Below are positions 1-19,680 of a DNA stretch of 64,000 nt, piece by piece. Source of the stretch: an uncultured Bacteroidales bacterium (GTDB taxonomy: Bacteria > Bacteroidota > Bacteroidia > Bacteroidales > Muribaculaceae); contig CASEAQ010000015.1 of the NCBI GenBank assembly GCA_949285735.1, forward strand, positions 33,049-97,048. Reading direction: 5' to 3'. Every line of letters begins with the position of its first letter. The stretch's first letter is position 1. Below the pieces are notes generated by a model. It was not told where the DNA came from. It saw nothing but the letters and a program-made list of their open reading frames with translations, and made no database searches. The translations under genes and the position numbers were made by a program.

Positions 1-87
1 CATGGGAGGAATTCGTTCCGACGGTTCCTTGCCCTAAAGGGCTGCGTCGCCGTCGGTTAGCGCAAAGTTGGACGGCTTCGCCGCCCC
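1..87. repeat. Palindromic intergenic repeat, copy 1 (right arm only)
   Basis: This is the right half of a repeat also found at 9677-10015 and 19359-19680; the left half lies outside the window. It holds a stem CCGACGG (18-24) pairing with CCGTCGG (50-56), an inner GCCC-TAAA-GGGC hairpin, then the shared terminal segment with the CGGC-TTC-GCCG hairpin ending in GCCGCCCC at 87. No reading frame is evident. The element looks like a non-autonomous structured repeat. Its mobility is inferred only from recurrence. Confidence 0.8.
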
Positions 88-228
88 AAGTATTCCTTCT
101 CCGCTTTAAATGAAGGTGCCGTGTGTTGCGCACCCCGAGTAAGCTGTGCGTTCCTACAACGTTACATCAAATCCGATTTTGATACAGGCGGCGTCTCGGC
201 AATACGCAAAAATGAACAAGTTCTTTTT

Positions 229-259
229 TTTGTATTGCGCTCAACTTGCACTATCTTTG
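229..259 (+). promoter_or_regulatory. Bacteroidetes-type promoter of the sulfatase operon
   Basis: TTTG at 229-232 is followed after 19 nt by TATCTTTG at 252-259. This matches the -33/-7 consensus of the primary sigma factor in Bacteroidetes. The implied start near 266 leaves a leader of about 60 nt before the ATG at 328. Confidence 0.75.
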
Positions 260-327
260 TATAGGAAACTGTCAAAGAGTTTGCAGAAACAGTTTCCCGA
301 ATACATAAACATATAACCCTAAAAACA

Positions 328-1764
328 ATGAATAACAAATTTGCTGCTGGCATTTTGTGCCTTGGCATGGGTGGACTTGTCACCGTCCAAGCCCAACAGC
401 AAAAGCCTAATGTAGTGTTTATCCTTGCCGACGATTTGGGATATGGTGACCTTGGTTGTTATGGGCAAGAGAAGTTTGAAACCCCCAATATCGACCGTTT
501 GGCGCAAGATGGAATGCGCTTCACGCAGTGCTATTCGGGTACTACCGTGAGTGCACCGTCGCGTTCGTGCCTGTTGACTGGAATGCATAGTGGACACACA
601 CCCGTGCGAGGCAATATCGAACTCGACCCCGAAGGGCAATTCCCATTGCCAGCCAGTACCCATACCATATTCCATACATTCAAGGAGGCTGGCTACAAGA
701 CTTCGGCTTTCGGAAAGTGGGGATTGGGCTTTGTGGGAACCTCCGGCGACCCTCGGTCGCAAGGGTGTGACAGGTTTTATGGCTTCAATTGCCAGTTGCT
801 TGCCCACAGTTACTATCCCGACCACTTGTGGGATAACGATCAACGAGTGACGCTCGACGACAATGTGCTCGAAGTGGAGTATGGCAAAGGCACTTATGCA
901 CCCGACTTGATACACTCGAAGGCACTCGAATATCTCGACAGTATGACTGCCGACGAGCCGTTTTTCATGTGGTATCCCACGATATTGCCACATGCCGAGC
1001 TGATAGTGCCAGAGGATAGCATAATCAAGCATTACCGTGGCAAGTTCCCCGAAGTGGCTTATAAGGGTACCGAGCCTGGCAATCCGGCATTCCGCCAGGG
1101 GGGATATTGCACCCAGCTACAGCCCCATGCTACGTTTGCGGCGATGGTGGCACGGCTTGATATGTATGTGGGGCAAATAGTGGCAAAGTTGAAAGAAAAA
1201 GGCTTGTATGACAACACTATTATCATATTTTCGAGCGACAATGGTCCGCACATGGAAGGGGGCGCCGACCCCGACTTTTTCAACAGCAACGGCATATACC
1301 GTGGCTACAAGCGCGATTTGTATGAGGGTGGCATAAGGGTACCTATGATAGTGTCTTGGCACATACAGGCAGGAACGGAAACCGACTTCATGTGTGCGTT
1401 TTGGGATATGTTGCCCACGTTCCGCCAAATCACTAATCCCAAGGCAAAACCTGTGGAGGGGGAAGACGGCGTGAGCCTGTTGCCGCTGCTCACGGGCAAG
1501 AAAGGACAGCAGGAACATGAATACCTGTATTTCGAGTTCCAAGAGCTCAACGGGCGGCAAGCCGTGCGCAAAGGCAACTGGAAGCTGCTGCACATGAACG
1601 TGCGTGGCGAAAGGCCTTATTATGAGCTGTATAATATCGCTGCCGACCCGTCGGAACGGCATAACTTGTTGGACGAGTACCCTGAGATTACCGAAGAGCT
1701 GAAGGCGATTATGCAGTCGGGGCATGTTGACAATCCCGATTTCCCTTTATTTGAAAAAAGATAA
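328..1764 (+). CDS. Ser-type sulfatase (arylsulfatase family S1), secreted
   Basis: The 478-residue product has an N-terminal signal sequence ending near AQA (residues 20-23). A family S1 sulfatase fold follows. Metal ligands D35-D36 sit in the ILADDLGYGD motif. The modified residue is S75 in S-A-P-S-R, and D304-N305 lie in SSDNGPH. Serine rather than cysteine at position 75 means that formylglycine would be made by an anaerobic radical-SAM maturase (anSME type), which is not in this window. Known members hydrolyse sulfate esters on sugars such as mucin or glycosaminoglycan units. It is the first gene of an operon with the beta-galactosidase 21 nt downstream. The exact sulfate position cannot be told from sequence. 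Confidence 0.93.
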   Translation: MNNKFAAGILCLGMGGLVTVQAQQQKPNVVFILADDLGYGDLGCYGQEKFETPNIDRLAQDGMRFTQCYSGTTVSAPSRSCLLTGMHSGHTPVRGNIELDPEGQFPLPASTHTIFHTFKEAGYKTSAFGKWGLGFVGTSGDPRSQGCDRFYGFNCQLLAHSYYPDHLWDNDQRVTLDDNVLEVEYGKGTYAPDLIHSKALEYLDSMTADEPFFMWYPTILPHAELIVPEDSIIKHYRGKFPEVAYKGTEPGNPAFRQGGYCTQLQPHATFAAMVARLDMYVGQIVAKLKEKGLYDNTIIIFSSDNGPHMEGGADPDFFNSNGIYRGYKRDLYEGGIRVPMIVSWHIQAGTETDFMCAFWDMLPTFRQITNPKAKPVEGEDGVSLLPLLTGKKGQQEHEYLYFEFQELNGRQAVRKGNWKLLHMNVRGERPYYELYNIAADPSERHNLLDEYPEITEELKAIMQSGHVDNPDFPLFEKR

Positions 1765-1785
1765 ACCTATAAAACAGTAAATTTG

Positions 1786-17839: not shown

Positions 17840-17947
17840 GTCGTTACACAAATTGTTGATTTTTATTTATGATGTAAAAATAGCGAAAAAGTTTAGAACC
17901 TGCTTAATTTTTTTGATTGGGAGCAAGGTCGGGGGGGGTGGATAAAT

Positions 17948-17979
17948 GGCAAAGGACGTGCAAATGCGCGTCCTTTGCC
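17948..17979 (-). terminator. Hairpin after the MFS gene
   Basis: GGCAAAGGACG (17948-17958) pairs perfectly with CGTCCTTTGCC (17969-17979). It lies 48 nt beyond the stop of the leftward MFS gene. The following minus-strand sequence (ATTTATCC) is only weakly T-rich. Confidence 0.6.
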
Positions 17980-18026
17980 AGATTGATTAATATTGCTATT
18001 TAGTTCGTTTATGCGATAGAGGTTTG

Positions 18027-19187
18027 CTATTTAGGCAGATTGGCAAACTTCTCGTATTTCAAGGCGAAAATGAGTGTCAGTATCGCACCGATTAGAACCA
18101 CGGGCATCGCTATAAGGGCTGTGTATTCATATCCCAAGTCGTGGCGCAACGGTATGCCGCCGACGGCTGCGCCTATTGCATTGCCAAGGTTGAATGCCAT
18201 CTGTATGCAGGCTGCGCCCAACAGTTCACCACCTTTTGAAAAATGGATAATCGACACCTGCAGTGGGCTCGAAACGGCAAAAAGTCCGAATGTGCAGATG
18301 CACATGAGCAACACCGAGGTCCAAGGTAACGGGTAGGAGAAAAACAATCCCAGCAAGGCGAGGCATATAATCACTTGCATCGTAAAAGCCACTCGTCCGG
18401 GAGTGAAACGGTCGGAGAGCCTGCCGCTGACAAGGTTGCCTACTACCATACCAAATCCGGCAAACACCATGAGGAACGGAACAACATCGCCGCTGAAGCC
18501 GCAACTGGCTGTCAGGTAGGGGTTGACATAGGAGTACCAGCAGAACACTGCTCCGTTTCCGAGCATGGTTGACAAAATTATGAGCCACGGCGCAGGGCTG
18601 CGCATGAAGTGAAACTGGCTGCGGTAGTTGCTTTTGGGCAGCCCCTCGACTTGCGGCACCCATTTATAGATGTAGTAGAATACCCCGACGCTCAAGACGG
18701 CGACAAGGATAAACGTCACTCGCCACGACATGAGGGTGCTGATGGAAGTGCCGAGCGGAACGCCGAATAGGTTGGCGACAGTCATGCCGGCAACCATTAT
18801 CGACACGGCTTGCGACCCCTTGCCCTCGTCGGCGAGCTTTTCTGCCACAATCGATGCCACGCCAAAGTAGGCACCATGTGGCAACCCCGATATGAACCGC
18901 CAGATGAGCAGCGTGACGTAGTTGGGCGACAGCGAGGCAAACAGGTTGCCGACCAGCATGATGACAACAAGCCCGAGCAGAATGTTCTTTAGCGGATAAC
19001 GGCGGACAAATGTCAGCCCCGGTGCGCCGCAGAACACTCCCAAGGCATAAGCCGAGATGAAGTGCCCGGCTGTGGGAATATCCACGCCCAAGTCTTGGGC
19101 GACGTATGGCAAAATTGCCATCATGACAAACTCGGCTATTCCCAGGCAGAGTGTGCCAAAACCTAAAGCAATCAAACTTTTTTTCAT
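18027..19187 (-). CDS. MFS exporter, DHA1 family (AraJ/sugar-efflux-like)
   Basis: The product is 386 residues from MKKSLIALGFG; the longer frame lacks a sensible N-terminus. About twelve membrane helices are visible. The AEFVMMAILPYVAQDLGV segment and GAPGLTFVRRYP loop are typical of the AraJ/YdeA-type DHA1 transporters, which expel sugars or drugs by proton antiport. A -7 box TAATTTTG is seen at 19239-19246 on the minus strand, with CAAA at 19268-19271 as the possible -33 partner. The substrate is unknown, and no adjacent regulator hints at one. Confidence 0.82.
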   Translation of the reverse strand: MKKSLIALGFGTLCLGIAEFVMMAILPYVAQDLGVDIPTAGHFISAYALGVFCGAPGLTFVRRYPLKNILLGLVVIMLVGNLFASLSPNYVTLLIWRFISGLPHGAYFGVASIVAEKLADEGKGSQAVSIMVAGMTVANLFGVPLGTSISTLMSWRVTFILVAVLSVGVFYYIYKWVPQVEGLPKSNYRSQFHFMRSPAPWLIILSTMLGNGAVFCWYSYVNPYLTASCGFSGDVVPFLMVFAGFGMVVGNLVSGRLSDRFTPGRVAFTMQVIICLALLGLFFSYPLPWTSVLLMCICTFGLFAVSSPLQVSIIHFSKGGELLGAACIQMAFNLGNAIGAAVGGIPLRHDLGYEYTALIAMPVVLIGAILTLIFALKYEKFANLPK

Positions 19188-19358
19188 AGAATGCGTGTAT
19201 AATGTACTCGTTGTTAAAAAATCCCGAAAAAAGCGGTGCAAAATTAGCAAACAGTTCCCATTGCTACCAAAATTTTCACGCCCATTGTTGACTTGTGAGG
19301 CAGATGCCGCGCTTTATCACAGCTCTTTTAAAGTGCGATGACAGTATAGGGGAACACT

Positions 19359-19680
19359 GGGGCGGCGAAGCCGTCCAACTATGCGCTAACCGACGGCGAC
19401 GCAGCCCAACGTAGTGGGCAAGGAACCGTCGGACATCACTACCGCCACCCAATTCAGGTCCTCGAAGAGGTCTAACGGAGCTTCTTTGTCATCTTGTATA
19501 AAGAACAACGTACATATCCACTACATGCCTGGCGGTTGTAATGCTGTTTAAGTACAGTCAAAGTGGCACGTTGGACCTCTTCGAGGCCCTGCTGCATGGG
19601 TGGTTTCATTCCGCGGGTTCCTTGCCCTAAAGGGCTGCGTCACCACGCGGTTAGCGCATAGTTGGACGGCTTCGCCGCCC
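19359..19680. repeat. Palindromic intergenic repeat, copy 3 (complete, 322 bp)
   Basis: The ends are inverted repeats of about 33 bp running GGGCGGCGAAGCC... to ...GGCTTCGCCGCCC. The left inner stem is CCGACGG/CCGTCGG (19390-19396, 19426-19432). The right inner stem is CCGCG/CGCGG (19611-19615, 19646-19650). The central pair around CCTCGAAGAGG recurs, separated by about 90 nt unlike copy 2. Unlike copy 2, the inverted terminal homology does not extend beyond the GGGCGG ends. It lies between the MFS gene and the DUF5715 gene. Confidence 0.85.

Follow-up and report, generated by a model that had tools for sequence, protein, structure and literature searches.

Most of what is understood about repetitive extragenic palindromic (REP) sequences and the REP-associated tyrosine transposases (RAYT) rests on GTAG-tagged hairpins in Proteobacteria. 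TnpA-REP is reported to act on the single-stranded REP but not on its inverted counterpart (iREP), and in one REPtron the tetranucleotide at the hairpin foot helps to set the cut site (PMC8266576). TIRtrons, a second kind of system built on a Y1 transposase, are given the motif GGGGWSAS (PMC3733652), and the 26 described TIRYTs fall into subclasses 2.1, 2.2 and 2.5 of TnpA-Y1, with none in subclass 1.2 (PMC6006769). Subclass 1.2 itself is marked by the signature Y---Q--HH, and its REP column reads 'no' and terminal IS200 secondary structures are generally absent from it (PMC6006769). Here we analyse a dispersed hairpin repeat in a 64-kb stretch of DNA (the window, G000:C15:33049-97048) from G000, a Muribaculaceae-like draft genome of 2.6 Mb that is about 80% complete, and relate it to a Y1 transposase that resembles this last subclass.

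An earlier note on the window had described three copies of an imperfect palindrome and proposed that they are REP/BIME-like elements (BIME, bacterial interspersed mosaic element) selected as folded RNA or single-stranded DNA. This is supported by covariation within the repeats and by Y1 genes that the same repeats flank, membership of the canonical GTAG-tagged REP/RAYT group excepted. With a probability of roughly 0.8, the copies are non-autonomous derivatives, resembling the REP doublets known as REPINs, of an IS200-like element whose Y1 transposase would act in trans on the folded inward strand.

Y1 transposase genes between inverted hairpin arms

Read inward from either end, the arm of this repeat opens with hairpin 1, followed by a linker whose last letters are TAACC, then hairpin 2, a spacer and hairpin 3. 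An arm has two to three hairpins in about 70-115 nt, and the two arms face each other in mirror image over an asymmetrical centre of mostly 60-130 nt. Hairpin 1 is GGCGGC GAA GCCGTC, in which a G-T pair is kept, hairpin 2, variable in its letters and constant in its pairing, has the stem CCGNNGG...CCNNCGG and an inner part, and hairpin 3 is GGCCTC GAA GAGGTCC. In the complete element two such arms lie inverted around a gene for a Y1/HUH transposase. A Y1_Tnp search of nine genomes of the genus gave matches in four, at 8 loci (one stop-broken), and at 6 of the 8 an inverted arm lies on either side of the gene: G003:C3, G000:C56, G000:C33, G008:C81 and, twice, G007:C46, where one of the two arm-flanked genes is stop-broken. 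Two of the six (G000:C56 and G000:C33) belong to G000 itself and lie outside the window, so that the transposase search suggested earlier finds its target here and in related genomes, and the remark that no transposase is associated with the repeats holds for the window and fails for the genome.

The transposase is about 150 aa long. All three proteins scored reach 64-73 bits against PF01797 (Y1_Tnp; cut-off 23), one reaches 58 bits and the others 50 and 47 against the NCBIfam model for IS200/IS605 (NF033573; cut-off 55), and all three stay far under the cut-off of 80 of the REP transposase model NF047646, at 20-24 bits. Their HUH motif reads DH[LI]H and their tyrosine motifs YIKSQKEHH, YIKGQKEHH and YIARQKEHH; the signature Y---Q--HH is present in all three and at 30/30 homologue loci, the reading frames of the latter having been selected by this very motif. 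The nearest solved structure chains are named 'transposase', and some of them we take to be ISDra2 TnpA. Judged by signature, HUH motif and length, the protein is probably TnpA-Y1 subclass 1.2-like.

The inner edges of hairpin 3 at G000:C56 are GTCCAACGGAGCTC on the 5' side of the gene and GGCACGTTGGACC shortly past its stop codon. Matching edges recur in copies that hold no gene: window copies 2 and 3 both have GGCACGTTGGACC, copy 3 also has AACGGAGCT, and further modules, L003 for one, have GTCCAACGGAGCTC in full. Because these edges are common to both kinds, the likeliest reading of the gene-less copies is that they derive from the gene-bearing element by internal deletion. The window copies have no gene and keep both arms, copy 1 to the extent that the window includes it. 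Among the loci retrieved from G000 there are 34 gene-less modules whose outer hairpins both fall inside 420 bp, as against 2 genes.

Three further observations concern these loci. At G000:C56:12787-13049 (L220 1788-2050) the hairpin 1 unit is repeated 4 times in tandem upstream of the Y1 gene, in the manner of a BIME cluster. One intergenic site carries Y1 elements of different subtypes in G003:C3 (L219) and G007:C46 (L224), with flanks about 81% alike. For the insertion at G003:C17, the near-identical G007 (flanks 98-100%) is without the module, and its site is not a clean empty one because other repeats occupy it.

Beyond the genus, Y1 homologues at E <= 1e-10 were found in 48 of the 99 genomes searched. 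From the longer list 30 loci were examined, of which 29 had enough flank (4 in the genus, 25 in the family or order), and inverted arms were scored where the repeat across the gene beat the highest score among 200 shuffles by over 5. They flank 21 of the 29 testable loci and 18 of the 25 outside the genus; within it, scores of 78 (G000:C56) and 101 (G003:C3) compare with shuffled maxima of 12 and 13. Of the 21 arm-bearing loci, 12 have TAACC in each of the two aligned arms and 2 have it in one. Among the arm-bearing loci whose letters were read, many show hairpins and several repeat the arm plan in other letters; at L254 it reads AGTGGCATCGCCACT, linker, TAACC and hairpin, and the two hairpin 1 copies of this locus differ by paired changes. 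In two further genera, too, the arms are scattered over the genome they come from, with 12 matches in G009 and 29 in G076, and neither set gave a match in the two other genomes searched beside each. We consider it probable, with less assurance than for the window copies themselves, that a REPtron peculiar to subclass 1.2 exists across Bacteroidales. Its REPs would be large and composite, with two to three hairpins and frequently with TAAC rather than GTAG as their tag; they would flank the gene and also occur as dozens of gene-less doublets, the arm being the independent unit of selection and exchange.

Covariation within the arm

For the covariation analysis, 172 pattern matches were reduced to 153 with a TAACC-like linker, of which 124 were parsed and 29 failed; loop-length and 93% redundancy filters left 86 arms, and 85 were aligned (alignment A1), L102 having been removed by hand and L106 lying outside the 86. 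Over 18 pairs, 95.4% of the cells of A1 are paired as against 87.1% after shuffling, a percentage biased toward our reading by a parse that demanded pairing and credited G-T. Ten of the 18 pairs change on both sides (4.4 when shuffled), in 91 cells (25.1 when shuffled), and slid controls reach a paired fraction of only 25-50%. Since the A1 arms had passed a pairing filter, the test was repeated on arms chosen by flanking anchors that exclude the variable letters, which 91 of the 153 arms match. Here 173 of 182 variable cells are paired, whereas 2000 shuffles average 93.2 and never exceed 113, so the test of covariation that the earlier note had called for comes out as pairing beyond chance.

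What is conserved are the arm's own hairpins. In the 19 of the 34 G000 modules in which both arms could be anchored, 72 of 76 variable cells pair within the arm, and only 27 of 76 pair across arms, where re-dealt arms give a mean of 29.5 and are as high in 694 of 1000 trials. Linkers of the same module are no more alike (0.610) than those of different modules (0.605; 25 modules). The pairing being local, and the linkers no more alike within than between modules, the selected unit is the arm and not the whole palindrome; from the same likeness within and between modules we infer that arms are exchanged between modules. The whole-element palindrome was considered as the selected fold and rejected, its cross-arm pairing being at chance level although it is the minimum-energy fold. 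As separate observations, some G000 modules (e.g., L110) are chimeric, with one arm of GCAGCCC type and the other of GGAGCGCAAGCG type, and by eye these two types resemble the arms of the genome's two Y1 genes.

Several details of the hairpins are kept with the fold. The loop of hairpin 1 is GNA in 73 of the 85 aligned arms, with A as its last base in all 85 (GNA triloops are unusually stable in DNA), and at the foot of hairpin 2 in the same alignment C30 of TAACC is invariant and T27, A28, A29 and C31 are each at least 90% conserved. The G-T pair of hairpin 1 is kept in 77/85 arms and a tandem G-A pattern in hairpin 2 (G[TC]GA...GA[A/G]CC) in 71/85. These kept mismatches bear on a mutational account of the paired changes, in which template switching corrects quasi-palindromes and the fold itself is under no selection. 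Short inverted repeats are indeed known hot spots of such correction, but template switching should erase the mismatches just named; it also sits badly with arms that are no more alike within one element than between elements, and with an arm plan that recurs in other letters around Y1 genes of other genera. We therefore regard this account as quite improbable.

The two strands of an arm are not equivalent. By DNA parameters 81/85 arms, and by RNA parameters 77/85, are more stable when folded on the inward strand, values that come from pairing-filtered arms and a parser crediting G-T and are thus biased toward our reading. Mismatches on the inward strand of the anchored cells are G-T in 33 cases and A-C in 2; in orientable modules the G-T to A-C counts are 8 to 5 and 5 to 1 by side, both sides leaning alike, and 35 to 5 where unoriented, these module counts being from arms of the G-T-crediting parser. 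The cells are not independent of each other.

Selection on a transcript, with the repeat acting as a terminator, an mRNA stabiliser or a small RNA, would also keep such folds. Single arms fold strongly as RNA, each of five whole elements folds into one long hairpin by minimum energy, and the modules lie outside long open reading frames (ORFs), which span 0 of the 34 with long flanks. Both arms, however, favour the inward strand, so that no single transcript holds both in the favoured form. The gene context, by a crude ORF rule, is tandem in 17 cases, divergent in 10 and convergent in 7, with no convergent enrichment, and a terminator between convergent genes was rejected on these counts. Rfam at the gathering threshold matched only three tRNAs in the window and nothing on the repeats, and at other loci a transposase gene lies between the arms. 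A structured RNA is accordingly very improbable.

Copies in the window and their outer shells

The pattern GGCGGCGAAGCCGTCC has 5 matches in the window (at most 2 mismatches) where 0.08 are expected. A covariance model of one arm, trained partly on arms from G000 itself, was scanned over the whole 64 kb and returned the same five arms (E 2e-18 to 3e-17) and one chance match (E 0.91); since the five arms lie there, all window copies are within the first 20 kb, as had been claimed. Direct reading bore out the sequences and positions reported for the three copies, and the stem changes CCGACGG/CCGTCGG, CCGAGGG/CCCTCGG and CCGCG/CGCGG are present. Copy 1 had been called partial, which is right inside the window, although the window edge alone truncates it and the copy continues to the left (Table 1); its right arm has its favoured fold on the - strand, reading inward. 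Some of the outer ends resemble those of a miniature inverted-repeat transposable element (MITE).

Table 1. Repeat copies in the window, in window coordinates unless a contig is named; E is that of the arm covariance model.
Feature	Position	Strand	Remarks
Copy 1, right half in window	1..123	.	remainder left of window, G000:C15:32782-33048 (267 bases)
Copy 1 outer MITE-like end TTTAAATGAAGGTGCCGTG	105-123		
Copy 1 right arm	18..85	-	hairpin 2 stem 18-24/50-56, hairpin 1 70-85; E 3e-18
Copy 2, complete module	9677..10015	.	flanked on either side by an additional 21-bp palindrome ATTAATAAAAAATAGARCAGG, 9677-9697 and 9995-10015
Copy 2 left arm	9699..9766	+	hairpin 1 9699-9714, linker, hairpin 2; E 9.8e-18
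Copy 2 left arm, hairpin 2 stem	9728-9734 / 9760-9766	+	CCGAGGG / CCCTCGG
Copy 2 left hairpin 3	9786..9801	+	GGCCTCGAAGAGGTCC
Copy 2 right hairpin 3	9881..9896	-	
Copy 2 right arm	9920..9993	-	hairpin 2 stem 9920-9926/9958-9964, hairpin 1 9978-9993; E 3e-17
Copy 3	19318..19739	.	outer ends degenerate: CACAGCTCTTTTAAAG at 19318-19333 (by eye), TTTAAATGAAATAGCCGTT at 19721-19739
Copy 3 left arm	19361..19432	+	hairpin 1 19361-19376; E 2e-18
Copy 3 left arm, hairpin 2 stem	19390-19396 / 19426-19432	+	CCGACGG / CCGTCGG
Copy 3 left hairpin 3	19457..19472	+	GGTCCTCGAAGAGGTC
Copy 3 right hairpin 3	19573..19588	-	adjoined by GGCACGTTGGACC
Copy 3 right arm	19611..19679	-	hairpin 1 19664-19679; E 1.8e-17
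Copy 3 right arm, hairpin 2 stem	19611-19617 / 19644-19650	-	CCGCGGG / CACGCGG

Across G000, the 23-nt pattern GGCGGCGAAGCCGTCCAACTATG (at most 3 mismatches) marks 52 forward and 49 reverse arm ends, and its reversed control has 0 matches in either orientation. These approximately 100 arm ends in 2.6 Mb are dispersed and form no arrays, which bears on a resemblance to the attC sites of integrons: the letters GTCCAAC / GTTGGAC fit the R-box consensus RYYYAAC/GTTRRRY of such sites. With copies that are dispersed and not arrayed, and with arms of other genera that carry no R-box-like letters as far as read, the attC reading was rejected and is hardly credible.

Searched with the arm model, for which at most 51 candidates per genome were scored, 8 of the 9 genomes of the genus hold arms, and outside the genus 2 of 90 do so weakly (best E 0.007 and 3e-4); the ninth, G002, has neither arms nor a Y1 match. 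Exact-pattern matches come from an uncultured Muribaculaceae metagenome-assembled genome (MAG), two MAGs labelled uncultured Bacteroides and Candidatus Avimuribaculum pullicola, the Bacteroides-labelled MAGs (L102, L106) having one arm-like stretch apiece. Viral contigs gave three hairpin-1 pattern matches, none of them followed by an exact TAACC.

Two side observations relate to the surroundings of the window copies. The AT-rich palindromic flank of copy 2 (ATTAATAAAAAATAGA, at the flank positions of Table 1) resembles the flanks of the copy at G000:C1:74703. At window positions 180-262 there is a promoter-like stretch, GTCTCGGCAATAC...AAAATGAACAAGTTCTTTTTT...TATCTTTG, that is repeated after several modules, with similar stretches in L069, L076 and L097, and that may be another dispersed repeat carrying a promoter.

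In G000 at least 5 long copies, window copy 1 included, have CACGGCTCTTTCATTTAAAG ends on both sides (at most 4 mismatches), and the degenerate ends of window copy 3 are of this type. An exact 9-bp target duplication stands at the fixed boundary of 2 of 22 end pairs, some of these pairs being doubtful and two loci counted twice, whereas 0 of 462 mismatched pairs reach 8/9; a third exact 9-bp duplication, TCTCTTCTC, is found at L149, and a 9-bp repeat surrounds the gene-bearing copy G003:C3. Copies in G001, G004, G006 and G008 are enclosed by GAGGGTGTATCAAAATG-type ends, and window copy 2 has a third kind of flank. We read the shells as separate MITE-like carriers of some copies.

It could be argued instead that the repeat is a plain MITE of a DDE-type transposase, whose mobile unit is the outer shell CACGGCTCTTTCATTTAAAG with its 9-bp duplication and for which the hairpin module is mere interior. 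The duplications at 2/22 end pairs and at L149 speak for this, as do six forms of 91-121 bp that have the same ends and a single hairpin. On the other hand, the module also occurs within other ends (the GAGGGTGTATCAAAATG type and the third flank of copy 2) or without a shell, the arms directly flank Y1 genes, and an unrestricted scan for direct repeats was not significant (at least 8 bp at 8/57 modules, control 13%). We hold this explanation to be unlikely; it is compatible with the derivation from an IS200-like element that we prefer.

Short forms with CACGGCTC-type ends, 39-121 bp long, were also observed. L112, L115, L118, L123, L125 and L138 have one hairpin and L113 and L120 none; they are probably deletion derivatives of the long form, and in the one-hairpin forms the deletions may have run across short GCCG or CGGC repeats. 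In G008 the end sequence GAGGGTGTATCAAAATGNAAA (at most 3 mismatches) has 131 and 138 matches on the two strands, some of them around a hairpin module.

Proposed mobility in trans and relation to known systems

A number of observations weigh against the derivation of the window copies from an IS200-like element active in trans. At two of the 8 Y1 loci of the genus (G007:C27 and G003:C10) the module is present upstream only, and G001, G004, G005 and G006 carry arms with no Y1 gene over the cut-off, so that their arms are either orphans or belong with a gene that was missed. Among the 29 testable Y1 loci 8 are without inverted arms, and at 7 of the 21 arm-bearing loci neither arm has TAACC in the aligned stretch; on a tree of 30 Y1 proteins, arm presence requires 7 changes against a shuffled mean of 7.9 (as low in 146/500), and, being unclustered, the arms do not in these data appear to be the invention of one clade. 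The excess of G-T over A-C mismatches comes from non-independent cells and falls to 5 against 1 when distinct two-pair combinations are counted by hand, and a larger count (48 to 11) came from the parser that credits G-T. The arms have no GTAG tag, and the three exact 9-bp duplications at CACGGCTC-ended copies point to a different transposition chemistry. Mobility itself is inferred.

The following mechanism would account for the copies. The transposase would be supplied from another place in the genome and, whenever a locus becomes single-stranded, as on the lagging-strand template, would bind an arm through its folded inward strand. By analogy with characterised enzymes, it would cut beside the bound arm with its tyrosine and then move or copy the unit in trans. 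Since the arms are inverted, either strand of the DNA would present one arm in recognisable form, and the one-strand asymmetry of the arm fits the action of TnpA-REP on REP but not on iREP (PMC8266576). TAAC at the foot of hairpin 2 may serve as a guide in the way that GTAG does in canonical REPs, and some copies seem to be carried along by a separate element, MITE-like and with target duplications of 9 bp.

One genus shows both stages in the attachment of an IS200-like enzyme to a gene-less repeat population, with complete gene-bearing elements, gene-less doublets and genomes that have arms only and no detected gene. As the arms vary widely under a fixed plan, the co-evolution of enzyme and hairpin becomes testable with many natural pairs, and the arm family may account for a class of unannotated repeats in the genomes of gut Bacteroidales. 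If a REPtron of subclass 1.2 exists, it would link mobile IS200 elements with domesticated RAYT/REP systems, and each lineage would invent new letters on one conserved arm plan. Among the matches listed from the open literature, with subscription papers and preprints outside the scope, there was no description of such repeats, or of subclass 1.2 REPs, in Bacteroidales. The possibility raised earlier that the copies are the ends of a known insertion sequence is touched in part, the arms being ends of an IS200-like element of which no description was found.

The elements share with classical IS200/IS605 members (IS608, ISDra2) a related Y1 transposase sequence and hairpins near the ends. Classical ends, however, have subterminal hairpins that are not known to be mutual inverted repeats, whereas the two arms here form an inverted pair, and copies without the gene are far more numerous than those with it. 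In comparison with the REPIN/RAYT REPtrons of Proteobacteria, both systems combine a Y1/HUH gene with palindromic repeats alongside, both have dispersed intergenic gene-less doublets in inverted orientation with compensatory changes, and in both the repeat family is genome-specific and one strand is favoured (PMC3116915, PMC8266576). The differences are that arms here are 70-115 nt long with two to three hairpins and REPs there 20-40 bp, that TAACC precedes hairpin 2 and there is no GTAG (GT[AG]G) foot, and that the protein falls under the REP transposase cut-off (20-24 against 80 bits) and is nearer to IS200. The elements therefore fall outside the canonical REP/RAYT group with its GTAG tag.

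With TnpA-Y1 subclass 1.2, for which about 148 aa is given, the transposase shares its length of about 150 aa, HUH, Y---Q--HH, low copy number and occurrence in Bacteroidetes, and differs in the W motif, which is WQ in only 5 of 27 W-matched proteins and WGK, WAK and others in the rest; inverted arms stand at 21/29 loci here, where that paper lists no REP (PMC6006769). Hairpin repeats are thus paired with a branch of the enzyme family previously described as lacking them (PMC6006769). TIRtrons likewise combine a Y1 gene with long terminal inverted repeats, some of them self-complementary, and moderately abundant copies (PMC3733652). TIRtrons (PMC3733652) and REPINs (PMC3116915) are the nearest relatives in kind of the element described here.

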